Positions 26,897 through 40,477 of a DNA stretch of 64,000 bases are shown here, in pieces. This DNA is from Actinoallomurus soli (lineage in GTDB: Bacteria > Actinomycetota > Actinomycetes > Streptosporangiales > Streptosporangiaceae). Below the pieces are notes generated by a model. It made no database searches. It was not told the DNA's origin and saw only the letters and a program-made list of their open reading frames with translations. How positions within the stretch are numbered: the first letter of the stretch is position 1; every line of letters begins with the position of its first letter. Position numbers and translations under genes: made by a program. Where the stretch lies: the NCBI RefSeq assembly GCF_024055715.1, contig NZ_JAMXMV010000005.1:62001-126000 (forward strand), written 5' to 3'.

Positions 26897-28741
26897 TCAG
26901 CGGAACCGCGTGTAGCCGGTGAGTCCCAGCAGGAGGAGCGCCGCCGGGCCCAGCACGACCAGCGCGGTGAGCAGGACGCCACGGCCGAGCTGGTACCCGA
27001 GGGGCACGAGCCGTTCGGGCCGTCCCGGGGCGCGCCACGGAACGCGTCCTTCCGCGCCGGCCCGGTCGTCGATCTCCCGGCCGGGCGAGTCCGCCTCCCG
27101 CCGCGCGGAATCCGCCTCCCCGCCGGGGAAGTTCGCTTCCCGGCGCGGGGAGTCCGGCTCGCGGCGCGGGGAGTCCGGCTCGCGGCGCGGGGGATCCGGC
27201 TCGCGGCGCGGGGAGTCCGCCGGCGTGCGCTCCCGTCCGTCGAGCGGCAGCCCGGCCGCCCAGCCGAACAGGTCGGCGAGCGCGGCCGGCGGGGTGTCGA
27301 GACCGGAGGCGAGATAACGCACCTGCCCGGCGGTGCGTTCGAGCGTGCGGATGGTGTTGCCGAGGCCGACCCCCTCCAGCCAGCCGCGCGCGTCCTCCTC
27401 GACGCCCCGGCCGATCGACGTCCGGCGCAGGACGTCGGCCTTGGTGACGACCACGGCGATGCGACGGTGACGGCCCTGGTCGTCGCGGGAGCGCAGATCG
27501 GCGAGCAGCCGCTGCAGCGTGTCGGCGGGGTCCTCCTCGGACGTCGCGGTGGCCTCCACCAGCAGCCGTTCCTCCCGGGACAGCGCGGGGCGCAGCTCCG
27601 GCAGGGCGAACGGGTCGATGACGAACAGCAGCGCCTCGCCGTGGTCGAGGTAGCGCAGCCGCTCGACTCGTGTCGCGCCGGTGTGCAGCTCACCGGCCGG
27701 GTCGAACAGGTAGAGGATCCGGTGGCCCGCCGGCAGGGTCACGTCCAGCATCATGGCGGCGGGCAGTTCGGGGCCGGTCTTGGCGAGGCGCCCGCCCGCG
27801 CCGAGCTCGGCCAGGGCGTCGGCGTACCCGCGGGCGTCCCGCGCCTCGACGAACTCCGCCCGGCCGCCGGCCGCGTCGGTGCCGGCGCGCAGTGCCCGTA
27901 CCGCCAGGAACATCAGCGTCGTCTTGCCGGCGGCGGGGCCGCCGACGAACGGCAGCGGCTCGACCCGCGCCCGGCCGATCCGCGCGGGCAGGGGGCGTCC
28001 GCAGTGCGGGCAGTACGCGCTGAGCCGGAACCGGCCGAGCAGGATCGTCGTGGGCAGCCGGGCGCCGCACCGGCAGACGTGCCGGAACGCGCCCAGCCGG
28101 TTCGGCACCAGGTGGCGGTGCCGTGCGTGGCAGTTCGGGCAGGCGTACGCGGGCAACGCCAGCCGCTCGTAGCAGCCCGGATGCGGGCAGGCCAGCAGGA
28201 TCCTGCGGTAGGCCGCCCACAGCCGCTCGACCGTCCCGAGCACCAGGACGCAGACCGACCAGGCGACGAGGCCGGCGCCCGCCACCGCCACGGTCACCAC
28301 CGCGAAGGCCAGGGCGGCGACGGCCAGCGGCAGGGCGGCCAGCAGGATCCCCGCGCACAGCGCCAGCCAGATCGGGAAGACGGCGAGCCCCTGCGGGAGG
28401 CGGAGCATCCGCGCCGTCAGCGTGGTGACGGCCCGGCGCGCCTCCGCCAGGCACCAGGGGATCGTACGGCGCGTCAGCGTCCGGACGTCCCGCCAGACCT
28501 GGTCGAGGAGGTACTGCGGGTAGGCCGGGTCCGCCGCGTCGGCGGCCGGGCGCGGCACGGCGGAGGGCCCTTCCAGCCCGGTGGCCGTCAGGGTCCGCCA
28601 CGTGACGAGGAAGAACCGGCCGATCCCGGCGCCCGTGGCCACCACCAGGGCGACGGGCACGGCGAACGGGACGACGAACACGAACTCGACCCACACCAGG
28701 CCGACCCAGAGGAAGAACAGCAGGGCGTAGACGACGGGCAC
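26897..28741 (-). CDS. Membrane-anchored P-loop GTPase with zinc ribbons (double-GTPase-system type)
   Basis: 614 residues: two N-terminal membrane helices (about 3-45), a second pair (about 119-168), a cluster of Cys pairs (CPHPGC, CPNC, CRC, CPHC; about 185-250) forming zinc ribbons, then a GTPase domain. The domain has P-loop GGPAAGKTT, Walker B-like LFDPAGE, and TKAD as the base-specificity motif. A 21-bp-repeat linker of SPRREPD units precedes a final membrane helix. The layout matches DO-GTPase-type proteins encoded with GAP1 in predicted conflict systems. GTG start 5 bp after the GAP1 stop. Last gene of the six-gene operon. Confidence 0.75.
   Translation of the reverse strand: MPVVYALLFFLWVGLVWVEFVFVVPFAVPVALVVATGAGIGRFFLVTWRTLTATGLEGPSAVPRPAADAADPAYPQYLLDQVWRDVRTLTRRTIPWCLAEARRAVTTLTARMLRLPQGLAVFPIWLALCAGILLAALPLAVAALAFAVVTVAVAGAGLVAWSVCVLVLGTVERLWAAYRRILLACPHPGCYERLALPAYACPNCHARHRHLVPNRLGAFRHVCRCGARLPTTILLGRFRLSAYCPHCGRPLPARIGRARVEPLPFVGGPAAGKTTLMFLAVRALRAGTDAAGGRAEFVEARDARGYADALAELGAGGRLAKTGPELPAAMMLDVTLPAGHRILYLFDPAGELHTGATRVERLRYLDHGEALLFVIDPFALPELRPALSREERLLVEATATSEEDPADTLQRLLADLRSRDDQGRHRRIAVVVTKADVLRRTSIGRGVEEDARGWLEGVGLGNTIRTLERTAGQVRYLASGLDTPPAALADLFGWAAGLPLDGRERTPADSPRREPDPPRREPDSPRREPDSPRREANFPGGEADSARREADSPGREIDDRAGAEGRVPWRAPGRPERLVPLGYQLGRGVLLTALVVLGPAALLLLGLTGYTRFR
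27080..27228 (-). repeat. 21-bp tandem repeat in the membrane GTPase gene
   Basis: Six to seven copies of a 21-bp unit encoding DSPRREP-type heptads; three central copies are nearly identical at the DNA level. It forms a charged, flexible linker between the GTPase domain and the last membrane helix. Confidence 0.75.
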
Positions 28742-28745
28742 CGTG

Positions 28746-31109
28746 TCACGCCCCCCGCCGGGCGCGCCGCCACGCCGCGGCCAGTCGCGGGTCGCGGTCG
28801 GTGAGCGCCGACTCGACCTGCCGCCGGGCGAACCTGCCCAGCGCGTTCGCCCACGCGTCGAGCGCCGCGACGGTCACGCCGGCCTCCGCGAGACGCGCCC
28901 CGACCTCCGCCAGGTCCGCGCGGCCGCGCCGGTCCAGGTCGGCCAGCCATGGCTCCAGCAGGCCGTCGCACACGGTGTCCGGCACCGCGGCGAGAACCCG
29001 GGCCCGCGCCGCGGGCGAGCGGCCGGCGAGGAACCGCGCGACGCCGGCCAGCGCGCGTTCGTGCAGCGGATCTCCCCGCCGCAGCGTGGTGAGGAACCGG
29101 GCCACGTCATCCTCGGACCCGGCCCGCAGCGTCCGCTCCAAGGTCAGGACCGTACGCGCGGGGCCGGCCAGCGTGGGCAGCCGGTCATGGATCAGCCGCG
29201 CGAGCCGTACGCCCTCCTCGGCGTCCAGCGGCACGCCGTCGAAGACCCGGCGCGGCAGGGCGCGCAGGACGGCGAACCGCCGCATCACCGGGCCCAGCCG
29301 CTCGACCAGCCACCGGCACTCCGGCACGGTCGGCGCCTCGGCCCACAGCACGCCGAGCAGGTCCTCGATGTCGGGCAGGCCGTGGGGTTCGAGTTCGACC
29401 AGCGCGGCGGTGGCCGTGAGGCGGTCGGCGCGCGCGGACAGCACCAGGCCTCCGGTGCGCGGGGCGCGCGTCCAGTCCTGATCGCCGAGCGCGGCGCACG
29501 CCTCAGGCGTGAGCATCGCCCGCCGGACCGCGGGGACGCTCGCCTCCAGTCCGGACACCAGCCCCTGGATCAGGGCCTTCCGCCAGAGCGGCGGAGTCGC
29601 CTCGACCGCTGCGGCCACGTCGCCGTCGCCCCGCCGCGCGCAGGCGGCCGCCGCGGCGGCCACGCACTCGGCGTCGACCGCGCCGTCCACCCGGACCGCC
29701 AGATCGACGAGCCCGGCGAGCGCGCGCAGGTCCGGCGCCTCGCTCATCGCCGTGCGGAAGTCCTCCGGGAGCCCGTCGCGCAGCCGTGTCCGGGTCAGCC
29801 GCGGCCGTACCGCCGGGTCGGCCAGGGCGAGGCGCACGCAGCGCTCGGCGGCCTCCGGCACCGCGTCCGCCAGGGCCTCCGCCAGGTCGAAGCCGACCGC
29901 GGGCAGGGTGGGGCGCAACGACGGCCAGACCCAGCCGGGCACTCCGCGGGCGCGGATCAGCGCGGCGGACACCGCCTGCTCCCCGGCGGAGACGGACGCG
30001 TCCCCCCGGCACAGCGCGAGCAGCGCCGCCGCGCCGTCGAGCGGGGAGACGTCGCCGTCCGTGACCCGGCCGGGGCGGCGCGAGTCCGGCGCCGTGACTC
30101 CGGGAACCTCGCCGCCCGGCGGCCGGCCGGGCGGATGGGAGCCCGCCACCACGCCTCCCGGCACCACGTCCCCCGAGACCTCACCGTCCGGCACCGGGCC
30201 GGGGCGAGCGGGGTCCGGTGCCGCCGCGTCATCGGGCGCGCAGATCAGCTCACCGACGGCGTCGATGCCGTCCAGGTCACCGGTCCGCCAGCATTCCGCG
30301 ATCACCCGGGCGAACCGGCCCGGCCGTACGCCGTCCGGGATGAAGGGCCCGTCGAGGCGGAACCCGCCCTCCGGGCAGGCGGACGGGACCGTGCCGACGA
30401 TGACGTGCGGCGCCGTGTCCGGGTCGGCCGCGTAGGTCGTGAACGACAGGTCGGCCGCGAGCGCCGCGGGCAGTGAGTACGACACGACGGCGATCCACCG
30501 GGCGACCACCTCGGCGTCCTCGGCGACGAGGACCACCCGGCCATGCCCGGCGTCCACCACCGCGGCAACGGCGTCGAGGAGCGCGGCGAGCCGCTCGTGC
30601 GCCTGTTCGCCTCCCAGCCGATCGAGGAGCGAGTCCGGGTCGAACGCCGTGCCGGGCGCCAGGACGGCCGGCGCCGCGTCATCCGCCGGCGCCGGACCGC
30701 CCGCCGCTCCCGGACCGTCGGCCGCCGCCGGATCGTCCGCGACGGGGGAGTCCCACAGGGGGGAGTCCCAGAACTCGATCGGCCGCAGACCCTCCATCTC
30801 CTCCGGTGTGGCCACGATCGCCTGCCCGAGGAAGTTGCCGTACCGGCCCGAGTAGTCGCGGCCGGTGTAGCGGCAGCGGGCCAGCACGAGGTACCCGTCC
30901 GCGCGGCCGTAGGTCAGCGCGGTGGGGAAGCCCGCCAGCTCCTCGGGGCCGGGTGCGGACGGCGCCCCCGGCGGCGGCCGGTACGCCATGGACGGCGTCA
31001 CCGCGCCGACCACGCCGGGCGGCGTGCCCGGGGTCATGCCGACGAACTGGAAGCCGGACCGGCCCGTCGGGCCGCGCTCGGCCGAGGTGTAGGTCAGCCG
31101 CCAGATCAT
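28746..31109 (-). CDS. GTPase-associated protein 1 (GAP1)-like protein
   Basis: 787 residues, no signal or membrane segment. The N-terminal ~110 residues (MIWRLTYTSAERGPTGRSGFQFVGMTPG and the ADGYLVLARCRYTGRDYSGRYGNFLGQAIV block) match the GAP1 N-terminal domain as I know it. The middle has a SYSLPAALAADLSFTTYAADP segment, and the long C-terminal half is an alpha-helical repeat. GAP1 proteins are found next to DO-GTPases, and their biochemical role is unproven. The start ATG at 31109 overlaps the upstream GTPase stop (ATGA). Confidence 0.78.
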   Translation of the reverse strand: MIWRLTYTSAERGPTGRSGFQFVGMTPGTPPGVVGAVTPSMAYRPPPGAPSAPGPEELAGFPTALTYGRADGYLVLARCRYTGRDYSGRYGNFLGQAIVATPEEMEGLRPIEFWDSPLWDSPVADDPAAADGPGAAGGPAPADDAAPAVLAPGTAFDPDSLLDRLGGEQAHERLAALLDAVAAVVDAGHGRVVLVAEDAEVVARWIAVVSYSLPAALAADLSFTTYAADPDTAPHVIVGTVPSACPEGGFRLDGPFIPDGVRPGRFARVIAECWRTGDLDGIDAVGELICAPDDAAAPDPARPGPVPDGEVSGDVVPGGVVAGSHPPGRPPGGEVPGVTAPDSRRPGRVTDGDVSPLDGAAALLALCRGDASVSAGEQAVSAALIRARGVPGWVWPSLRPTLPAVGFDLAEALADAVPEAAERCVRLALADPAVRPRLTRTRLRDGLPEDFRTAMSEAPDLRALAGLVDLAVRVDGAVDAECVAAAAAACARRGDGDVAAAVEATPPLWRKALIQGLVSGLEASVPAVRRAMLTPEACAALGDQDWTRAPRTGGLVLSARADRLTATAALVELEPHGLPDIEDLLGVLWAEAPTVPECRWLVERLGPVMRRFAVLRALPRRVFDGVPLDAEEGVRLARLIHDRLPTLAGPARTVLTLERTLRAGSEDDVARFLTTLRRGDPLHERALAGVARFLAGRSPAARARVLAAVPDTVCDGLLEPWLADLDRRGRADLAEVGARLAEAGVTVAALDAWANALGRFARRQVESALTDRDPRLAAAWRRARRGA

Positions 31110-32263
31110 CCGCGGACCTCGTCGAGCATCCCGAACCGGTACAGCAGCCACAGCAGCGGGTCTTCGACGCGGTACGGGCGGATCCCCCCGGTGCCGACGG
31201 CGCCGTCGCGGGGCACGCCGCCGAGGGCGGACACCCCGAACAGGCCGTACTCGGCGTACTCGTGCCCCAGGTAGCGGTCGAGCTCGCCGGCCTGCCAGTC
31301 GTGCAGCAGCGCGCGCACCTGCTCGTGCACGGCCTCCCGGTCGTCCAGGTCGAGGACGTCGGACCGCTCGGGGTGGCGCTGCAGCGCTCCGTCGAGCGGC
31401 AAGGCGTCGATCTTGGTGAGGGCCACGGCGGCGGGGACCGGCAGCCGCCTGCCGTGCGGGACGTCCCGGCCCGCGCGCAGGAGTTCGGTGACCCGGGCGA
31501 TGACGTTGACGGGGTCACCGTCGGGGTCGCCGTTCCCCGTCTTCAGCTCGATGGGGTCGACGAGGAAGATGATGGCGTCGGCCGCCGCGAGGTAGCGCAG
31601 GTGCAGGTCGGTGACGTCACGGCTGCGCAGGTCCTCGCCCGCCGTGTCGAACAGCACCAGTGTCAGGGACATGTCCCGCTGCCGCAGGCGGCGGCGCCGG
31701 GTCCGGGTGAGGAGGTACACCAGCGGATCGCGCGGGGTCGTCACGGCGCTGGCGGTGGCGGGCAGCAGCCGCCGCTCCCCGAACAGCGGCCGGTGGAAGT
31801 CGCGCTTGTAACGCTCGATCGTGCGGTCGTCACAGGCGACGAGCGAGGTGCCGAGCTCCGCGCCGATCCGGTGGGACAGCTCGTGCAGCAGCACCGCGAT
31901 GTAGGTGCTCTTCCCGGAGTTCTTCGCGCCGACCAGAGCGACGATCTTCCCTGGCGTCTCGCAGTACGCCGCGGGCAGCGGGTTGTGACACTCCGGGCAC
32001 GCGCGGCGCGCCGTGGTCTGCCCGCACTCGGGGCAGACGGCGCGGCGGGCCGGGGCCCGGCCGACCCGGAGCCGCGCCGCCGGCTCCGGCGGGCCGAACA
32101 CGGGAGGCAGCGACGCGGCCGCCGCGGACCCGGTGTAGGCGGCCAGCCGCTCGTCGAGCCGCGGCGCGCAGCCGGGACCGCGTCCAGGACTGCCCGCGCA
32201 CCGGAACGCGATCCGGTCGCGGTCCACTCTCGCGAAACAGTAGGGACAGGTGATCGACGGCAT
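31106..32263 (-). CDS. Zinc-ribbon P-loop GTPase (DO-GTPase type)
   Basis: 385 residues. N-terminal Cys motifs (CPYC at 6-9, C22, C32; CPEC at 77-80 and 89-92, C101) make two zinc ribbons. The GTPase domain has P-loop GAKNSGKS at 112-119, the G3 motif DTAGED, and TKID as G4. Soluble, unlike the membrane GTPase of the same operon. The start at 32263 shares one base with the upstream stop (TGATG). Its likely partners are GAP1 and the membrane GTPase encoded directly downstream. Family assignment is from architecture and neighbourhood. Confidence 0.8.
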   Translation of the reverse strand: MPSITCPYCFARVDRDRIAFRCAGSPGRGPGCAPRLDERLAAYTGSAAAASLPPVFGPPEPAARLRVGRAPARRAVCPECGQTTARRACPECHNPLPAAYCETPGKIVALVGAKNSGKSTYIAVLLHELSHRIGAELGTSLVACDDRTIERYKRDFHRPLFGERRLLPATASAVTTPRDPLVYLLTRTRRRRLRQRDMSLTLVLFDTAGEDLRSRDVTDLHLRYLAAADAIIFLVDPIELKTGNGDPDGDPVNVIARVTELLRAGRDVPHGRRLPVPAAVALTKIDALPLDGALQRHPERSDVLDLDDREAVHEQVRALLHDWQAGELDRYLGHEYAEYGLFGVSALGGVPRDGAVGTGGIRPYRVEDPLLWLLYRFGMLDEVRG

Positions 32264-34797
32264 CAGCCCACTTTCAGGTGGCGGACCGGAGGGTCGCGCA
32301 GGTCGATTGTGTCGTCTTCGGCGAAGCAGCGCAGCCAGAACGGCCGGGGCAGGCGCGGCAGCGCGACCTCCAGGCGCGCGGGCACCTCCACGTCGTTCCA
32401 GGACATCACGGTCCGGCCGTCGCCGGGCCGCTGCGGCATGGGCCCCGACCGGGTCACGAGGACGAGCCGCCGCAGGCGTACGGGGGCGGCGGCGGACAGG
32501 GTGACGGTGAGCGGGCCGCGCAGGCGGGGGCGCCGCACCTCGTAGCCGACGGTCGTGCGGCCCGGCACCATCGTGGTCACGGGCGTGCCGGTGACCCGCC
32601 GTCCCTGCGCCGTACCCGCCGCGGCGACCTCGATCGTGACCGTCTCGTCCGGCGGCGCCGGGAGGCGCACGCCGCCGTGGGCGTCGTAGCCGGCGCGGCC
32701 GACGGGCAGGCGGCGCTCGTCGCCGGTGTCGGACCACCAGGCCACGTCGACCTCGGTGACGTCCGGCGGCCAGTCGAACCCCAGGATGATCACCTCGCCG
32801 CGCCGCTGGGCGACCAGCTCGCGCGGCGGCGTGAGACTCACGTGCTCACGGTGGTCGCCGATCGTGGCGAGGTCCCCGGCGACGGACACGGCCAGCAGCA
32901 CGCCCGGGCCGGTTTCCACGGTGAGGCCGCCCGGAGCGGGCGCCGCGCGCAGGACCCGGCCGATGCGGCGGACGTCGTCCAGCGGCAGGGTCGTGCCGGG
33001 CGGCCAGGGCGGCGGCCCGTCCATCGCGACGAGCTCCACCTCGCCCTCGGCGGGCGGGTCGAAGGTGACGATGAGCCGCCCGGCGGGGTCGTGCTCGACG
33101 CCGAGCCCGGTCACGGGAGCGGGACGGGCGGCGGGCGTCGCGGCGGCGTGCACCCCGGCCGTCACGGTCTCCCGGCCGTCGGCGCCGAGGTACGCGGCGG
33201 CGATGCGGTAGTGGTAGGTCGTCCCGTTGCGCACGGTCTCGTCGCGGAAGCCCGTGCGCGCCGCCGGGACGGGCGTGCCGTCCCGGGTCACGATGACGCG
33301 GACGGCCTCGGGTGGGCAGGACCAGCGGCCCGCGACCACGCGGTCCGCGGCGGTCACGATGACGTCCGCCGGCTCCGGGCGTACGAGGACCGGCCCGGCG
33401 ACCGCGGGCGCCGACGCCGCCGAGCCGCGTACGGCGAACACCGCGTAGTAGACGGGGGCGTTCAGCGGAGGCGCGGGGTCACGGGCGTGGGCGGCCTCCG
33501 CCGCGAGCCGCTCCCCGTCACCGGGATGCCGGGGGACCCGCCCCAGGCAGCGCAGCACGACGTACCCGATCTCGCCGACGCGTGACGGCGACGGCGACCA
33601 GGACAGCGCGACCGCGGCGCCGTCGACGGCCGCCTCGAGCCGCCCGGGCGCCTGCGGTGGCAGCCCGGCCTGCAGCTCGGCGGCGCCCGGCAGGTCGCCG
33701 ACCAGCCGCAGCGCGTCGGCCAGCCGCAGCCACGCCCCGTCGGGATCGGACAGCAGGAGGGACGCCGCCTCCTGGCGCAGCGCCGTCGCCGCCGCCACCC
33801 GGCGGCGCGCCTCGTCCGCGAGGACCCGCGCGTCGCCCTCCGGCTCGCCCGCCTGCCCGGCCACCTCGGCCAGCTCGGCGGCCGCCTGGACCTCGCCGGC
33901 GTCGATGAGGTCGCGCAGCCGCGCGGTCAGGCCGCCCGTGGGAGCGGTCTCCCGCCGGATCGCGAAGACGAGCCGGCGCGCGTCGTCGCGGTCCACCCCG
34001 AGCTCCTCGACGGCGTACCGCAGCAGCGCGCCCTCCGAGGCCCGCTGCTGGTGCCGCTCGCGCAGCCGCGCCACCACGTCGTAGCGCACGAGCTCTCCCA
34101 GCCGGGCGCCGACCTGGCGCACCGCGACCAGGACCGTGTCGGCGTTCGTGCGGTTGCCGTCGTGCGGGTGCCGGCTCCACTGCTCGCCGACCCGCCGCGC
34201 CGCGGGCCGCAGGTCGGGGATCTCACCGAGGACGCGCCCGGCGCCCGGCTCACCGGTCAGGAACTCGCGCAGGTGGCGCGGGCCGAGGGCGTCCAGCGCG
34301 TCACGGGCCCGTGCGTACCCGGCGTAGGGCGGCGCGGCCGGCAGCGGGTCCGGCTCCCGGATCTCCACGCCGACGGCGCGGGCGACGTCCGCGGCCTCAC
34401 CGCCGATCTCCCGCAGGTCGGCGGGCGACAGCATGCGCAGGTCCCCGGCGGCGTCCAGCAGCCGGTCCCGCAGGTCGGCGCGGCGGCGCGCGGCCCGGTC
34501 GCCCGCCGCGTCGATCTCGGCGCGCAACGGGGCCAGGTCGCCCGCCGCCGCCCGCTCGAACAGCGGCGCGAGCCTCAGGTGCTCGCCCTCCAGGCGGTCG
34601 ACCAGCCGGCGGAACCGCAGCCGGCCCCGCGCCTTGCGCCAGCAGGTGCGGACCTGCTTGACCCGGTCGGCCACCTCGCGGGGGACGAGCGGGTCCGGCA
34701 GGGCGTAGCGCAGGCGCAGGTCGTCGGGCGGCTGGTCCCCGGCCGCCCGGGCGGGCTCCAGCACCTCACGGACGTAGCGCCGTTCGTCAAAGACCAC
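32263..34797 (-). CDS. Large helical and fibronectin-III-like protein of the GTPase/Hsp70 operon
   Basis: 844 residues, no signal peptide. About 1-370 is Arg/Glu-rich and alpha-helical (coiled-coil-like helices and a short-repeat region near 290-350). About 375-840 is beta-rich and appears to hold four or five fibronectin-type-III-like domains, for example ALSWSPSPSRVGEIGYVVLRC and a YHYRIAAAY segment. Such proteins likely act as scaffolds. The GTG start overlaps the Hsp70 stop by one base (TAGTG) and the stop overlaps the next ATG, so it is made together with both. No enzymatic motif is seen. Confidence 0.75.
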   Translation of the reverse strand: MVFDERRYVREVLEPARAAGDQPPDDLRLRYALPDPLVPREVADRVKQVRTCWRKARGRLRFRRLVDRLEGEHLRLAPLFERAAAGDLAPLRAEIDAAGDRAARRRADLRDRLLDAAGDLRMLSPADLREIGGEAADVARAVGVEIREPDPLPAAPPYAGYARARDALDALGPRHLREFLTGEPGAGRVLGEIPDLRPAARRVGEQWSRHPHDGNRTNADTVLVAVRQVGARLGELVRYDVVARLRERHQQRASEGALLRYAVEELGVDRDDARRLVFAIRRETAPTGGLTARLRDLIDAGEVQAAAELAEVAGQAGEPEGDARVLADEARRRVAAATALRQEAASLLLSDPDGAWLRLADALRLVGDLPGAAELQAGLPPQAPGRLEAAVDGAAVALSWSPSPSRVGEIGYVVLRCLGRVPRHPGDGERLAAEAAHARDPAPPLNAPVYYAVFAVRGSAASAPAVAGPVLVRPEPADVIVTAADRVVAGRWSCPPEAVRVIVTRDGTPVPAARTGFRDETVRNGTTYHYRIAAAYLGADGRETVTAGVHAAATPAARPAPVTGLGVEHDPAGRLIVTFDPPAEGEVELVAMDGPPPWPPGTTLPLDDVRRIGRVLRAAPAPGGLTVETGPGVLLAVSVAGDLATIGDHREHVSLTPPRELVAQRRGEVIILGFDWPPDVTEVDVAWWSDTGDERRLPVGRAGYDAHGGVRLPAPPDETVTIEVAAAGTAQGRRVTGTPVTTMVPGRTTVGYEVRRPRLRGPLTVTLSAAAPVRLRRLVLVTRSGPMPQRPGDGRTVMSWNDVEVPARLEVALPRLPRPFWLRCFAEDDTIDLRDPPVRHLKVG

Positions 34798-36416
34798 TAG
34801 TCGACGCGTATGCCGGCCAGGTCGGTGCGCGACTGGTGCACCTCTTCCTCGGACATTCCGCCGACCCGCACCTCGAGCGTCAGCTCCTCGGCGGTCTCCT
34901 TCTCCACGGCCGTGACGTGCAGCAGCCCGGAGGTGTCGAGGGCGAACGTCACCTCGATGGGCCAGCCGGCGGGCTTGCCGGGCGGGATCTTCAGCTCGCC
35001 GTCGGCGATCGGCGTGTTGTGGGCCACCTCGGTCGACTCCGCGCTGCCCGCCTGCTCGACCACGATGATCTTCACGATCGTCTGGTCCTCCTCGATCGTC
35101 CCGAACTCGCGGGTCTTGCCGCGCGGGAGCGCGTCGTTGGCGTGCACCAGGTGGACGACGTGCTCCTGCTCGGTGTCCGGGTCGAGCGCGATGACGCCGA
35201 ACGCGCGGGAGGCCACGGTCGTGATCTGCCGGGCCGCCATCCGCTCCTGCTCGCTCTCGGACAGGCCGGCCCGGGTCGCCAGGTCCAGGGCCTTGTCCGT
35301 CTCGCCCTTGGCCAGGAGCTGCCGGTAGGTCTCCTCGAAGGCGTACAGCGCGGCGCCCTTGGCGACCGCCAGGTCGGGGTCCTGCAGCCGGGGGCTCAGC
35401 GCCAGCTCGTCGGCCAGCCGCCGCTGCACGGCGGGCATCTTCGTGGAGCCGCCGACGAGCACGAGGTCGTCGTAGTCGGACACGCCCTTCCCGGCCGCGG
35501 TGGCGAGCGTACGGCCGGTGATCTCGATGGTCCGGTCGAGCAGGTCCTTGGTGATCTCCTCGAACTTCTCCCGGGTCAGCTCGACGGTGGCGACCCGGCC
35601 CTCGTGCATGACGCGGACGACGTGCCGGGTGCGCAGCGACAGGGCCTTCTTGGCCTCCTCCGCGTCGTGCCGCAGCTGCTGCTCGGTGTGCTTGTCGTCG
35701 AGGGGGTCGCCGACGTCGGGGTGCTCCTCGGCGAACCGGCCGGCGAGGTACTCGACGAGCCGGGCGTCCCAGTCGGCGCCGCCGAGCTCGTGGTCGCCGT
35801 CGGTGCAGACGACGGAGATGTCGCCCCCGCGCAGGGTGATGACGGTCGTGTCGAAGGTGCCGCCGCCGAGGTCGTACACCAGGATCGTGCGGTCCGCGGA
35901 CCCGGCGCCGTCCTTCTCCTCGTCGGCCGCCGTCGCGGGGTTGAGCACCCCGTACGTGATGGCGGCGGCGATCGGCTCGGAGATGATGTCGATGACGTTG
36001 AGCCCGGCGATGCGGCCCGCCTTGCGGGTGGCGTCCCGCTCAGCGGCCCCGAAGTAGGCCGGCACCGTGATGACGACGTCGCGGACGTCCTCGCCCGTCG
36101 TGGCGGTCGCGTCGGCCACCAGCTTGCGCAGGACGAACGCGGAGATCTCCTCGGGGGAGTAGTCCCGCTCGTGCAGCTCGCGCGGCACCTCGTGGCCCAT
36201 GTCCCGCTTGATCAGGCTGACCACCAGGTCGGGGAACAGCACGGCGGTGTCCTTCGCCGGCGCGCCGACGACGACGTTGTCGGCGGATTCGAAGTAGACG
36301 ACCGACGGCGTCGTGTCGGTGCCCTCCATGTTGCGCAGCACGGCCGGGCGGCCGACGTCGTCGACGCGCGCGATGCACGAGTGGGTCGTGCCCAGGTCGA
36401 TACCGTAGACAGCCAT
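34797..36416 (-). CDS. Hsp70-family protein lacking the helical lid
   Basis: 539-residue DnaK relative. The complete nucleotide-binding domain has phosphate loops DLGTTHS at 7-13, VYDLGGGTFD and LVGGSTKMPAV, and the family IISEPIAAA block. A substrate-binding beta domain follows (FGVIALD, ANDALPRGK, IPPGKPAGWPIEVTFALDTSGLLHVTA). The sequence ends at about residue 539, where classical DnaK (~610-640) continues into the alpha-helical lid, so client binding may be short-lived or specialised. One base separates it from the GrpE-like gene. It is not the housekeeping DnaK: no dnaJ is present, and the operon partners are GTPases. Confidence 0.9.
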   Translation of the reverse strand: MAVYGIDLGTTHSCIARVDDVGRPAVLRNMEGTDTTPSVVYFESADNVVVGAPAKDTAVLFPDLVVSLIKRDMGHEVPRELHERDYSPEEISAFVLRKLVADATATTGEDVRDVVITVPAYFGAAERDATRKAGRIAGLNVIDIISEPIAAAITYGVLNPATAADEEKDGAGSADRTILVYDLGGGTFDTTVITLRGGDISVVCTDGDHELGGADWDARLVEYLAGRFAEEHPDVGDPLDDKHTEQQLRHDAEEAKKALSLRTRHVVRVMHEGRVATVELTREKFEEITKDLLDRTIEITGRTLATAAGKGVSDYDDLVLVGGSTKMPAVQRRLADELALSPRLQDPDLAVAKGAALYAFEETYRQLLAKGETDKALDLATRAGLSESEQERMAARQITTVASRAFGVIALDPDTEQEHVVHLVHANDALPRGKTREFGTIEEDQTIVKIIVVEQAGSAESTEVAHNTPIADGELKIPPGKPAGWPIEVTFALDTSGLLHVTAVEKETAEELTLEVRVGGMSEEEVHQSRTDLAGIRVD

Positions 36417-36417
36417 C

Positions 36418-37158
36418 TCATTCTCCTCCGACGGGTTCGGCCGCCATCCGGGCGACGATCACCTCGGCGCGTCGTGCGATCCGGTCACCGCGGACGAAGC
36501 CGGCCCGTTGCACCCTGGCCACCGTGCCGTCGAGCTCCGCGTCGTCCACGTCCTGGGTGCCGGCCGGGCGGTGCCGCGCCGGGTCGAACGCCTCACCGGT
36601 CTCCACGGGCATCGGCTCCACGCCGGTGCGCGCGAGGATCTCGGCCAGCTCCTCGGCGATCGCCGCGAGCAGCACCGGCGTGTGGGCGGGGTCCACCGTC
36701 TCCCGCTCGGCCTCCCGCCGGACCAGGTCGTACAGGCGGTACAGCGCAGCGCGCACCGGCTCGAACGCGGTCTGCAGCTCACCGTGGCGCAGCCGCTGGT
36801 TGTCCTCGTGCAGCCGGTCGATGACGCGCTCTCGGTGCGCCGCCCGCTCGTGCTCCCTGCCGACGGTCTCGGTCAGGCCGGCCAGCAGCGACCGGATCTC
36901 CTCGAGCGACACCGCGACGCGCCGGCCGGGCTCGTCCGACGCCGGCTCGTCGGCCGGCGGTTCACCGGCCGGGGACGTGTCCGCCGCCGGCGCGCGCCCG
37001 GGGCGCCGGCGCCGGGGCGCGCGGGAGTGCCCGGGGGCGGGCGGCGGAGGGCCGGCCTCCTCGGCGGGAGGGTCGTTCGGCACCCCGGCGGACCGGCCCG
37101 GGTCGCCGGCCGGCGGGGAGCCGCTCCCGCCGCGGGGGGACTCGGGGTCAACGGGCAT
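36418..37158 (-). CDS. GrpE-like nucleotide exchange factor
   Basis: 246 residues. A disordered Pro/Ala-rich N-terminus (1-75), then a long coiled coil (about 80-135, LEEIRSLLAGLTETVGREHER...VIDRLHEDNQRLR) and a small C-terminal beta domain (DAELDGTVARVQRAGFVRGDRIARRAEVIVA) like the GrpE head. GrpE proteins release ADP from Hsp70; this one presumably serves the lid-less Hsp70 encoded one base downstream. First gene of the six-gene operon. ATG with a weak GAGG site. Confidence 0.85.
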   Translation of the reverse strand: MPVDPESPRGGSGSPPAGDPGRSAGVPNDPPAEEAGPPPPAPGHSRAPRRRRPGRAPAADTSPAGEPPADEPASDEPGRRVAVSLEEIRSLLAGLTETVGREHERAAHRERVIDRLHEDNQRLRHGELQTAFEPVRAALYRLYDLVRREAERETVDPAHTPVLLAAIAEELAEILARTGVEPMPVETGEAFDPARHRPAGTQDVDDAELDGTVARVQRAGFVRGDRIARRAEVIVARMAAEPVGGE

Positions 37159-37586
37159 GGCCTCGCACCATAACTCTGAGTGAGCAGGGACGTCAGCCCA
37201 TTGTCTCCATCACCGGAAGCGGGCACCACCCTTCCGGGCAGTTCGATGTCCCCGCCCGTCACTTTTCCGCGCCCGTCGACCCGGCATTAACCCCCAGACC
37301 TGGCGTTAATCACAGAGAGTGATAAACGGCCTGTTGAACGTCTTACTCCTCGAATTCGGGCATGTTGCGTACGGCGTGCCCGCGCCGCTGCGCGGCTGCC
37401 GCAGCAGACAACGTTCGCCCCGTTGACGACGGTGTGGGGGCGGTCGGTGGCGTGTTCGTTCCGCCGGATGAACGCCGCGCCAAATGACCTTATTGGTGTC
37501 ATGGCCGGGATTGTCCGGTGGCCCTGGCTGGGCCGGTGTTTCCCGGGGGCGCGGGTTTTGTCGTAGGCACCTGCTGTAATCGTCTC
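37159..37586. other. Intergenic region: GTPase-operon promoter and left end of the TnpB element
   Basis: About 430 bp. Near 37170-37195 the minus strand shows CTGACG, 17 bp, TTATGG, a weak promoter candidate for the six-gene operon. Small inverted repeats ATCAC-5-GTGAT (37309-37323) and CAACG-7-CGTTG (~37407-37423) lie further right. The left boundary of the transposon-type element should be in here but I cannot place it. Confidence 0.35.
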
Positions 37587-39020
37587 GTGCCTCGACGTGT
37601 CGACCCGGATGCTCCCCGGACGGTGTTGCGCACCGCCCGGGTCGGCCTGCGCCTCGCCCCCGCCCAGCGACGGCGCTGCTTCGGCCTGCTGGTCGCCGCC
37701 GGGGACGTGTGGGCCTGCGTCCTGGACATGAACCGGTGGCGACGCCAACGCGGCCTGCCAGCCATCGTGGGGTATCAGGCGTTGTGCCGGGAGTTGTCGG
37801 CGGCAGGGCCGGGCACCTTCGGCGACCTTGACACCACCGGAGCGCGGTCGGTGCTGCGCCGGTACAGCGATGCGTGGTTCGCCGCCGCCAAACGCCGCAC
37901 CGGCGGCGATGTCTCCGCGCGGTTCCCGCGCCGTAAACGGCGTCTGATGCCGGTGCGGTATTACCACGGCACCTTCACCCTCACCGGCCGGCACCTGCGG
38001 CTCCCCGTCGCCCGCGGTCGCCCGCCGCTGTGGGTCCGCCTGGACCGGGACCCGCCCTACCCGGCCGAACAGGTCCGCTCGGTCACGTTGCTCAACGAGG
38101 GTGCCCGGTTGTTCGTCGAGGTGACCGCCGAAGTCCCTGTCGCCACCTACCCGCCCGGCCACGAACCCGACCCTGAGCGTGTGGCGGGCGTGGATCTGGG
38201 GGTGATCCACCCGTATGCGGTGGCCGGACCCGGCGGGGAGGGTTTGTTGGTGTCGGGGCGGGCGCTGCGCGCCGAGGCCCACCTGCACCTCAAAGATGCC
38301 AAGTACCGGCGCCGTGCCGTCGCCCGGCGCGCGCCGAGACCGGGGCAGGCGGGGTCGCGGCGGTGGCGTAAGTACCGTGCCCGTCAGCGCAAGCTCGAAG
38401 CCCGGCACAAACGCCGGATCAAACAGGCCCAGCACGAGGCCGCCAAACAGGTCATCGAATGGGCCGTTACACGGCGGATCGGAACCTTAAGGGTCGGCGA
38501 TCCCCGCGGGGTCCTGGAGTTGAAGGCGGGGCGGCGGCACAACCAGCGGCTGCGGGACTGGCGGCCCGGCTACCTGATCCGCTGCCTCAAAGACAAGGCC
38601 GAGCAGGCCGGGATCCGTCTTGAGCTGGTCGATGAGCGTGGGTCGTCTTCGACCTGCCCGGTGTGCGGGCGGCGGGTCCCTAAACCCGTTGGCCGTCGCT
38701 TCCGTTGTATGCATTGTGGTTTCAGCGGGCACCGCGACTTGGTCGGCGGCGCCAACATCGCCCGGCGTGGTCCGGGCGACACCATCACCACCGACACCGA
38801 CACCGAGGATCGGTTTCCGGTGGTGATCACGCACCGTCGAGCCGGACGGCACCTGCCCGGTGCCGGACCGGCACGGCGTGACCCCAGACGACGCCCCCAT
38901 CACGGCACCGCCCACAGGTCCCCTGGCCGGCCGAGGCCCGCCCCACCACCCCCGGCGGGGAGTCGCTCGCCCACAGCGAGGATCAACCAACACGGTCACC
39001 ACACGACCAACGTTGATTGA
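37587..39020 (+). CDS. tnpB: TnpB RNA-guided endonuclease (IS200/IS605 family) with rearranged RuvC site
   Basis: 477 residues from the GTG at 37587; the frame is open back to a GTG at 37518. TnpB proteins are RNA-guided DNA nucleases of IS200/IS605 elements. RuvC-I Asp203 (GVDLGVIHP), C4 zinc finger (CPVC...CMHC) and RuvC-III Asp384 (GHRDLVGGANIA) are present. At the RuvC-II place the usual Glu is Gly (GDPRG, Gly304). Glu350 in VDERGSS lies 46 residues later, matching the alternative-Glu TnpB subtype. A ~80-residue basic, Pro-rich tail follows RuvC-III and probably overlaps the guide-RNA scaffold. No tnpA is nearby. Confidence 0.9.
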   Translation: MPRRVDPDAPRTVLRTARVGLRLAPAQRRRCFGLLVAAGDVWACVLDMNRWRRQRGLPAIVGYQALCRELSAAGPGTFGDLDTTGARSVLRRYSDAWFAAAKRRTGGDVSARFPRRKRRLMPVRYYHGTFTLTGRHLRLPVARGRPPLWVRLDRDPPYPAEQVRSVTLLNEGARLFVEVTAEVPVATYPPGHEPDPERVAGVDLGVIHPYAVAGPGGEGLLVSGRALRAEAHLHLKDAKYRRRAVARRAPRPGQAGSRRWRKYRARQRKLEARHKRRIKQAQHEAAKQVIEWAVTRRIGTLRVGDPRGVLELKAGRRHNQRLRDWRPGYLIRCLKDKAEQAGIRLELVDERGSSSTCPVCGRRVPKPVGRRFRCMHCGFSGHRDLVGGANIARRGPGDTITTDTDTEDRFPVVITHRRAGRHLPGAGPARRDPRRRPHHGTAHRSPGRPRPAPPPPAGSRSPTARINQHGHHTTNVD

Positions 39021-39030
39021 AACGGCACTA
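38770..39030 (+). mobile_element. Right end of the IS200/IS605-type element with probable omegaRNA
   Basis: The 3' end of tnpB encodes a low-complexity tail and the gene stops 7 bp before the convergent cvnD stop. In this family the guide RNA scaffold overlaps the end of tnpB and the guide is copied from DNA beyond the right end. This would place the element's edge at about 39010-39030 (palindrome CAACGTTG at 39010-39017). The exact boundaries and RNA are inferred. Confidence 0.4.
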
Positions 39031-39645
39031 GCGGATGACCGCGCCGGCCTGGCGCTGGCGCTCGGCCATCACGGACAGGACATGCTCCACGAGGGCGATC
39101 AGGACCTGCTTGCCGGACTCGCGCCGACGCACGTCGCACAGAATGATCGGGACCCGGGGGTCCAGGTCCAGCGCGGCGCGGATCTCCTCGGTGTCGTACT
39201 GGATCGCGCCGTCGAAGCAGTTGACGCCCACGATGAACGGCAGCCGCCGCCGCTCGAAGTAGTCGATGGAGGGGAAGGAGTCGGCGAGGCGGCGGGTGTC
39301 GGCGAGGACGACCGCGCCGAGGGCGCCGAGGGCGAGCTCGTCCCACATGAACCAGAACCGGTCCTGGCCGGGAGTGCCGAACAGGTACAGGACGAGGCCG
39401 TCTCGGATGGTGATGCGGCCGAAGTCCATCGCCACGGTGGTCGTGGTCTTGCGCTCCACGCCGGAGGTGTCGTCGATGCCGACGCTGCGGTCCGTCAGTT
39501 GTTCCTCGGTCCGCAGCGGCTTGATCTCGCTGACGGCGCCCACCAGGGTCGTCTTTCCCACGCCGAATCCGCCCGCGACGAGGATCTTCACGGCGAGCGG
39601 CATGGCGGCAGCGCCCCGTGAGGGGTCAGAGCGCCTGGAGTCCAT
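39028..39645 (-). CDS. cvnD: Conservon GTPase CvnD
   Basis: Small MglA/Ras-like GTPase of 205 residues. P-loop GGFGVGKTT, switch/G3 FGTPGQDRFWFMWDEL, and the NCFD G4-like motif. Fourth protein of the conservon, a membrane-associated signalling complex with a histidine-kinase-like protein, a roadblock protein and a DUF742 protein, linked in Streptomyces to control of development and antibiotic output. The ATG at 39645 overlaps the cvnC stop by 20 bp; a second in-frame ATG at 39603 precedes the MPLAVKILV core. The stop faces the TnpB gene. Confidence 0.93.
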   Translation of the reverse strand: MDSRRSDPSRGAAAMPLAVKILVAGGFGVGKTTLVGAVSEIKPLRTEEQLTDRSVGIDDTSGVERKTTTTVAMDFGRITIRDGLVLYLFGTPGQDRFWFMWDELALGALGAVVLADTRRLADSFPSIDYFERRRLPFIVGVNCFDGAIQYDTEEIRAALDLDPRVPIILCDVRRRESGKQVLIALVEHVLSVMAERQRQAGAVIR

Positions 39646-39988
39646 TGAGCACTTCCTTCAAAACCCGTTCGTTGGGAAGACGGTTCTCTGTTTCAGGACG
39701 GCGTACGACGATCAGCCCGAGATCGAGCAGGTCTCCCAGCAGGACCCGCACGACGCCCAGGGGGAGTTTCAGCTTCGCCGAGATCTCCGCCACCGAGAGC
39801 GGGCGCACGCACAGGTCGAGGATGGCGACGTGCTCCGGGCCGGCGTTCGGCGGAGCGAACGTCGACGTCGCCGCCGTCGCGATGATCGCGATCAGGTCGA
39901 AACCCTCACGCGAGGCCCTGGTCCGGCCTCGCGTGAGAGCGTAGGGCCGGACCACCGGCCCTGCTTCGTCGTCGAGCCATTCGCTCAT
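39626..39988 (-). CDS. cvnC: Conservon protein CvnC (DUF742)
   Basis: 120-residue DUF742 protein. It has the conserved start VVRPYALTRGRT, then a winged-helix-like body (LCVRPLSVAEISAKLKLPLGVVRVLLGDLLDLGLI) that could bind DNA or the GTPase. It always accompanies CvnB and CvnD in conservons and overlaps cvnD here by 20 bp, fitting a fixed stoichiometry. Confidence 0.93.
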   Translation of the reverse strand: MSEWLDDEAGPVVRPYALTRGRTRASREGFDLIAIIATAATSTFAPPNAGPEHVAILDLCVRPLSVAEISAKLKLPLGVVRVLLGDLLDLGLIVVRRPETENRLPNERVLKEVLNGLQAL

Positions 39989-40072
39989 TCAGCCGTCCCG
40001 CCTCGTGGGCCGTCGTGGGGAGGGCGACATCGCCGGGTGTCCGTTGTGTTGTCCTCGCACGATCACTCGGCC

Positions 40073-40477
40073 TCACGATTCCACGGCTGAGCGAGGCAGG
40101 GTCGACATGTGCTGGCCGACCCGCTTGACCAGCATCGCCATCTCGTAGGCGATCATACCGACGTCGGCGTCGGCTCCCGCGAGCACCGCGAGGCAGGCGC
40201 CCGAGCCGGCCGCCGTGACGAACAGGAAGGCGTTGTCCATCTCGACGATCGTCTGGCGCACGCCGCCGCCGCCGAACTGGCGTCCGGCGCTCCGGGCGAG
40301 GCTCTGGAAGCTCGCCGCGACCGCCGAGAGGTGCTCGGCGTCCTCCCGGGTGAGGCCGGCGGATGCGCCGACCAGCAGGCCGTCGCTGGAGAGCACCACC
40401 GCCTGCCGCACCTGGGCGACGCGGTTGACGAGGCTGTCCAGCAGCCAGTTGAGTTCCCCCGCAGAACCCGCTGACAT
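40073..40477 (-). CDS. cvnB: Conservon roadblock/LC7 protein CvnB
   Basis: 134-residue roadblock/LC7-fold protein (LDSLVNRVAQVRQAVVLSSDGLLVGASAGL, MDNAFLFVTAAG, ADVGMIAYEMAMLVKRVG). By analogy with MglB it may act on the partner GTPase as a GAP. I chose the ATG at 40477, which shares one base with the cvnA stop (TGATG), so translation is coupled to the kinase gene. An 84-bp gap separates it from cvnC. Confidence 0.93.
   Translation of the reverse strand: MSAGSAGELNWLLDSLVNRVAQVRQAVVLSSDGLLVGASAGLTREDAEHLSAVAASFQSLARSAGRQFGGGGVRQTIVEMDNAFLFVTAAGSGACLAVLAGADADVGMIAYEMAMLVKRVGQHMSTLPRSAVES

Follow-up and report, generated by a model that had tools for sequence, protein, structure and literature searches.

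A six-gene operon with two DO-GTPases, GAP1, a lid-less Hsp70 and GrpE in Actinoallomurus soli: a candidate membrane-associated G-protein switch

The stretch of DNA analysed here (the window) comprises 64,000 nucleotides of Actinoallomurus soli (assembly GCF_024055715.1, contig NZ_JAMXMV010000005.1, positions 62,001 to 126,000 of the forward strand) and carries, at window positions 26897-37158, six intact minus-strand open reading frames whose neighbours lie 1-4 bp apart or overlap by 1-4 bp. With near certainty they constitute a GAP1-N2-type double-GTPase system with the HSP70/GrpE theme; as far as its sequences indicate, the system looks like a part of the core genome under purifying selection in the window's clade, where we regard a core cellular function as fairly probable, rather than mobile defence. 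The DO-GTPases and GAP1 (GTPase-associated protein 1) were named by Kaur et al. 2020 (PMC7159879); in the sections of that work on these neighbourhoods, HSP70/GrpE is the second theme (~14% of GAP1-N2 neighbourhoods), a computational prediction with HSP70, GrpE, a fibronectin type III (FNIII, FN3) protein, a zinc-ribbon GTPase and a membrane GTPase as its gene set. No experimental work on the GAP1-N2 HSP70/GrpE system was found in the open-licence literature searched. The features of the operon are the following (all Pfam matches are above the curated cut-offs):

36418..37158, minus strand: GrpE-like nucleotide exchange factor, 246 aa, with a long, low-complexity N-terminus (Pfam GrpE 9.5e-13, residues 151-236)
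34797..36416, minus strand: Hsp70 without alpha lid, 539 aa (Pfam HSP70 4.2e-102; match to mycobacterial DnaK; motif counts)
32263..34797, minus strand: scaffold protein (helical plus fibronectin III), 844 aa, GTG start (profile, AlphaFold2, Foldseek)
31106..32263, minus strand: soluble DO-GTPase2, 385 aa, with N-terminal zinc-ribbon Cys pairs (Pfam DO-GTPase2 1.5e-9; motifs)
28746..31109, minus strand: GAP1, 787 aa (Pfam GAP1-N2 1.3e-36, GAP1-M 8.3e-24; AlphaFold2)
30843..30845, minus strand: codon of GAP1 Arg89, candidate arginine finger (conservation; loop between model strands 73-84 and 90-100)
26897..28741, minus strand: membrane DO-GTPase2, 614 aa, GTG start (Pfam DO-GTPase2 1.2e-17; hydropathy; motifs)

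The coupling of the six genes, already described in an earlier reading made from the sequence alone, was confirmed: a 1-bp gap separates GrpE and Hsp70, 1-bp overlaps join Hsp70 to the FN3 protein (TAGTG) and the FN3 protein to the soluble DO-GTPase (TGATG), the latter overlaps GAP1 by 4 bp (ATGA), and a 4-bp gap precedes the membrane DO-GTPase. The family assignments of that reading for the proteins encoded at 26897, 28746 and 31106 were likewise borne out by Pfam (DO-GTPase2, GAP1-N2/M and DO-GTPase2, respectively). The six genes also proved to travel together: in a survey with six models, the complete set was present in 59 of the 78 fetched loci (the count excludes L131, which is a surplus piece next to L111; four doubtful sequences, namely the L047 Hsp70 hit, the L030 GAP1, the L035 soluble-GTPase hit and the L048 FN3 hit, were kept out of model building, as were all cut sequences). 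Four of the complete loci seem out of order when judged by whole stop-to-stop frames (L082, L111, L113, L114), which we take, without resolving each, as overlapping open frames. Among the 19 incomplete loci, six end at contig ends as judged by coordinates (L027, L035, L045, L080, L087, L090), Hsp70 or GrpE was not detected by the six models in eleven (L041, L047, L048, L049, L086, L095-L098, L133, L134), nor the membrane GTPase in L092, nor GrpE in L120. The pairwise distances of the six proteins are intercorrelated (r 0.85-0.96, 20 genomes). With the window's own genome counted each time, GAP1-M or GAP1-N2 was found in 17 of 80 relatives, in 152 of 341 genomes of the taxonomic family and in 4/296 genomes of the phylum sample; the FN3-protein profile yielded relatives in 32/296 genomes of the class at 1e-30.

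Several lines of evidence point to vertical inheritance in the window's clade. Trees of Hsp70 and of the soluble GTPase separated this clade (28 Hsp70 rows, support 100/100) from a second, patchier set; the groups inside it track genera, all eight sequences from Actinoallomurus being united in a single clade. GAP1-M or GAP1-N2 occurs in all eight genomes of the genus Actinoallomurus, and GAP1 in 11/11 genomes of genus g32, 5/5 of g289 and 62/65 of g38; the three negative g38 genomes consist of 570-800 contigs each and gave FN3-protein matches of 1.4e-129, 5.8e-34 (partial) and 1.8e-6 (25 residues only). Window-type loci, fetched from 11 of the 65 g38 and six of the 11 g32 genomes, contained all six genes in every case. 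A flanking gene was common to 95 of 103 same-genus pairs versus 149 of 978 cross-genus pairs, and to none of the 329 pairs between the window's and the second clade (53 loci were treated as window's clade in this test, part of them placed by tree, the rest by score and genus). The trees broadly resemble that of rpoB, for which G001 was missing, and the distances of the six proteins correlate with those of rpoB (r 0.79-0.88, 20 genomes). The ratios of non-synonymous to synonymous change (dN/dS) against the seven genus-mates were 0.08-0.16 for the soluble GTPase, 0.10-0.22 for Hsp70, 0.24-0.37 for the FN3 protein, 0.22-0.38 for the membrane GTPase, 0.31-0.54 for GrpE and 0.41-0.48 for GAP1 (six pairs: the A. 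spadix GAP1, which lies in two reading frames, was left out, and the G001 pair used a contig-cut GAP1). Diversifying selection, looked for as a mark of an arms race, was not apparent: dN exceeded dS in only one of 94 analysis windows over the six genes (GrpE N-terminus, 0.17/0.16), by a pairwise Nei-Gojobori procedure that would miss single sites.

These patterns have to be weighed against the published interpretation by Kaur et al., an anti-invader conflict system in which invaders would be sensed by the FN3 protein and GAP1, with the GTPases providing a threshold and assemblies of Hsp70 serving as the effector. It is the inference published for the whole family with its variable components, and the corresponding sections of the source report a link to multicellularity (601 of 904 GAP1-N2 organisms; PMC7159879); in addition, the second clade is patchy in the tree, some genomes (e.g. 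G005, G617, G619, G650, G652) hold one copy per clade, and GAP1 is the second fastest-diverging of the six proteins. In the window's clade, however, the genus-wide presence with common flanks speaks against it, and the FN3 protein, a proposed sensor, is not hypervariable by its dN/dS, its beta part being conserved to the same degree as its helical part. None of the six operon proteins matched a defence model of PADLOC-DB 2.0.0 at 0.01, nor did nine of the ten neighbouring proteins scanned (the tenth is an ABC-type ATPase with a match to mad3/mad8); GAP1 and the FN3 protein gave no match in plasmids and the DO-GTPase none in phages, and of 27 matches to viral contigs obtained with the single GAP1 pattern used none was confirmed. 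Judged by its flanks, the patchy clade does not show evidently weaker synteny, with a common flanking gene in 4 of its 20 cross-genus pairs (1/1 within genus), numbers too small to call it more mobile. Because of the vertical, purifying pattern, the mobile-defence explanation is weakened for the window's clade, and we consider the anti-invader explanation rather unlikely; the suggestion of the sequence-only reading that the operon is a defence or self-recognition device found no support in these tests.

Both GTPases belong to the DO-GTPases, exceeding the Pfam DO-GTPase2 cut-off, and represent two paralogues with zinc-ribbon Cys pairs and intact nucleotide-binding motifs. In the soluble protein, the P-loop reads GAKNSGKS, G3 DTAGED and G4 TKID; the P-loop is kept in 76/76 soluble and 74/74 membrane GTPases, and G4 is TKxD or SKxD in most rows, with SRxD or TRxD in a few membrane GTPases (L032, L099). 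The residue directly after the G3 glycine, presumably the position of Ras Gln61, is a Glu in all rows shown for the two GTPases (21/21 and 26/26); by a cruder pattern, it is present in 74 of 76 soluble GTPases. A conserved Glu of this kind, in Walker B/G3, is a defining trait of the DO-GTPases in the HSP70/GrpE theme. The membrane GTPase consists of hydrophobic N-terminal segments, zinc-ribbon Cys pairs, the GTPase domain (residues 262-480) and one C-terminal hydrophobic segment; by crude hydropathy, at least two N-terminal stretches occur in 74/74 members of this group and a C-terminal stretch in only 47/74.

GAP1 comprises an N2 domain (residues 1-127), an M domain (162-247), a disordered linker and a helical solenoid (356-787; AlphaFold2 mean predicted local distance difference test (pLDDT) 85.7); the model runs from a longin-like over an alpha/beta to a helical part. 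According to the part of PMC3521125 that concerns them, DENN modules are arranged as longin, alpha/beta DENN and helical d-DENN, and the part of PMC12803157 on DENN-type GTPase-activating proteins (GAPs) places their catalytic arginine after strand 4 of the longin domain and before strand 5. In GAP1, Arg89 is present in all 77 rows with a residue there (79 rows in the alignment) and forms the sole Arg/Lys column with at least 85% conservation; it occupies the loop linking strand 4 to strand 5, provided that the model strands (73-84, 90-100) are read as longin strands. If so, GAP1 might act as a GTPase-activating protein via R89, a role that the model and the conservation suggest and that we consider doubtful. 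Two points weigh against it: the statistics for the longin/DENN fold are weak, and the adjacent G91 (77/77) and N92 (77/78) are about equally conserved, as would fit a structural turn. Both points are compatible with GAP1 as a guanine nucleotide exchange factor (GEF) or a mere scaffold, whose longin-like head would bind the GTPases without catalysis and in which R89 would be structural; DENN modules were initially recognised as GEFs for Rab GTPases (according to the same part of PMC3521125), and longin domains also serve as binding modules. Against this alternative stands the position of R89 as the only near-invariant Arg/Lys in the loop that holds the catalytic arginine of the DENN GAPs; we rate it as a serious possibility somewhat short of probable. 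A roadblock match of GAP1 was not obtained in Pfam. In Actinoallomurus spadix (G004), the GAP1 gene (L030, 7962-10483) is split into two overlapping reading frames, a frameshift due to either mutation or sequencing error.

The Hsp70 is composed of an ATPase domain (residues ~3-359), a non-canonical linker stretch (~360-405) and a beta substrate-binding domain (~406-529), and its residues 4-384 and 414-529 align as separate blocks with DnaK of mycobacteria. The missing alpha lid, pointed out in the sequence-only reading, turned out to be a general trait: 64 of 65 operon Hsp70s have a length of 527-576 aa (the remaining one is a 108-aa fragment), and the aligned rows shown stop just past the beta domain. 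Four of the nucleotide-binding motifs are kept in 64/64 operon sequences and one in 62/64. The canonical hydrophobic interdomain linker was found in none of the 64 operon Hsp70s by a wider pattern, chosen because the narrower one missed VVLLDV, one of the two linkers (VLLLDV, VVLLDV) of the genome's own DnaKs; its place is taken by a variable stretch that is, by eye only, partly helical-looking. The window's own genome (G000; C19, C57) contains two further full-length DnaK genes with canonical linkers and a DnaJ match within ~1.5 kb of each; its J-domain matches outside the operon number four. The operon Hsp70 may be stimulated by a borrowed J protein or via the FN3 protein. The letters HPD occur in 43/65 Hsp70s and 8/73 FN3 proteins and were not taken as J domains. 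A second Hsp70-like match lies beside the operon in L032, L042, L102, L124, L126 and L130, all outside the window's clade; a subset of systems with a second Hsp70-like gene has been described in the respective section of Kaur et al. (PMC7159879).

With respect to their role, the chaperones could stand outside the switch and do no more than help the GTPases or the scaffold to fold, as dedicated partners. Since neither Hsp70 nor GrpE was detected in some related GAP1 loci (e.g. L041, L048, L086, L096, L097, L133, L134), the GTPase/GAP1 core can dispense with the chaperones; in the window's clade, on the other hand, their genes are missing only at contig ends or, GrpE alone, in L120, and they are the first genes of the operon, so that we judge this explanation quite improbable. 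Upstream of the operon, HAIR or CIRCE heat-shock elements were found by pattern in none of the eight genus members, some of the upstream stretches being short. The segment before grpE (window 37159-37250, minus strand) contains a conserved stretch around CTCACTCAGAGTTATGGTGCGAG that is common to the genus members whose sequence reaches there and matches neither element; it is a possible promoter or operator.

The large protein encoded between Hsp70 and the soluble GTPase is all-helical in residues 5-377 and forms beta-sandwiches of the fibronectin III type in residues 388-844 (AlphaFold2 mean pLDDT 89.0). The window protein itself gave no FN3 match in Pfam; a profile from 18 aligned relatives matched fibronectin at 2.5e-11 and the model did so in Foldseek at 4.9e-13, and the earlier description as a large helical plus FN3-like protein was therefore correct. 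A J domain was considered for its N-terminus, where the model has two candidate helices (39-57 and 60-84) joined by a two-residue turn, and was not detected: none of 70 sequences contained HPD among the first 130 residues, and the hhalign probability was 0.4% against a profile built from only three J domains. Pfam detected no tetratricopeptide repeat (TPR); the helical part was not searched by fold alone, as FN3 repeats filled the match lists.

The explanation that we favour over the others is that the operon encodes a membrane-associated G-protein switch, a picture that we put forward tentatively and in outline, as slightly less than evenly balanced. The sequences show which genes and families are present, intact nucleotide-binding motifs, joint inheritance and a vertical pattern; how the GTPases pair, the GAP activity, what the chaperones do, where the system acts and what it is for are inferred. 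The soluble and the membrane DO-GTPase would together form the switch at the membrane; the longin-like head of GAP1 would bind the GTPases, with the invariant R89 promoting hydrolysis, and its helical solenoid might serve as scaffold together with the helical/FN3 protein. The lid-less Hsp70, driven by GrpE, would load or reset the complex in each ATP cycle, presumably for a conserved cellular function in the window's clade. The joint proposal, i.e. a bacterial DENN-like GAP1 with an R89 finger acting on a paired DO-GTPase switch that is driven by a lid-less Hsp70 as a core, non-mobile machine, is unlikely in its entirety. If true, bacteria would possess an equivalent of the eukaryotic longin-DENN logic of GTPase control, equipped with its own dedicated chaperone. 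If GAP1 is a longin/DENN-like GAP, a single point mutant would allow a direct test of the switch logic, with bearing on the origin of eukaryotic GTPase control. Should the system prove to be core in these actinomycetes, its function should be sought in growth, envelope or development besides phage defence. With neither lid nor usual linker, the conserved Hsp70 lends itself to finding out which parts of an Hsp70 are required for work on a dedicated client.

Directly upstream of the operon (window 39028-43443, minus strand) lies a set of genes for a NIT sensor histidine kinase, a roadblock protein, a DUF742 protein and a GTPase, which we take to be a conservon. Its GTPase gene adjoins the operon in 8/8 genus members; as the genus has one ancestor and this adjacency counts as one event, no functional link between conservon and operon is claimed. 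Between the conservon and grpE, an IS605-type TnpB-like gene (Cas12f1-like TNB domain) is located on the opposite strand (window 37518-39020, plus strand); a search of seven loci from genus-mates did not find it there, and three of these loci carry another opposite-strand gene at this place (an acyltransferase by eye only). Some genomes of the taxonomic family possess a second, diverged rpoB according to the tree (L161, L162, L163).

Among the closest known systems, TagF, a repressor of type VI secretion, may be listed, and MglA-MglB and the conservons provide a parallel in that a GTPase is combined with a PAS/longin/roadblock-type partner (in the part of PMC3521125 dealing with these), but they contain another GTPase family. 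The DENN/longin GAPs (FLCN-FNIP, C9ORF72-SMCR8, Avl9), so far as the cited parts of the literature describe them, share with the GAP1 model the order of longin-like, alpha/beta and all-helical parts and a conserved arginine between longin-like strands 4 and 5 (R89 in GAP1). Canonical DnaK/Hsp70 and the operon Hsp70 have the ATPase motifs and the beta substrate domain in common, whereas the latter is devoid of the hydrophobic linker and the lid, with no J-domain protein detected in the operon. The closest correspondence is to the HSP70/GrpE theme as laid out in the relevant sections of Kaur et al. (PMC7159879): a zinc-ribbon DO-GTPase, GAP1-N2/M, an FNIII protein, HSP70 and GrpE in actinobacteria as well as a second DO-GTPase with membrane segments at both termini are found in either case (the theme's criterion being four N-terminal helices and one C-terminal helix, compared with two N-terminal stretches and one C-terminal stretch by the crude hydropathy used here). 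The same sections describe the typical FNIII protein as a fusion with a DnaJ domain or TPRs and call the neighbourhoods mobile, whereas the window protein has a helical N-terminus without HPD among its first 130 residues and without a Pfam TPR match, and the window's clade looks vertical. A lid-less, linker-altered Hsp70 and a longin/DENN-like GAP1 are not mentioned in those sections, and the words longin and DENN are absent from the main text of the paper. The combination of a chaperone module, an FN3 scaffold and two GTPases in one unit, singled out as striking by the sequence-only reading, is present and is at the same time already printed in the theme's description; the window operon adds facts to a known system and is not a new kind of system.

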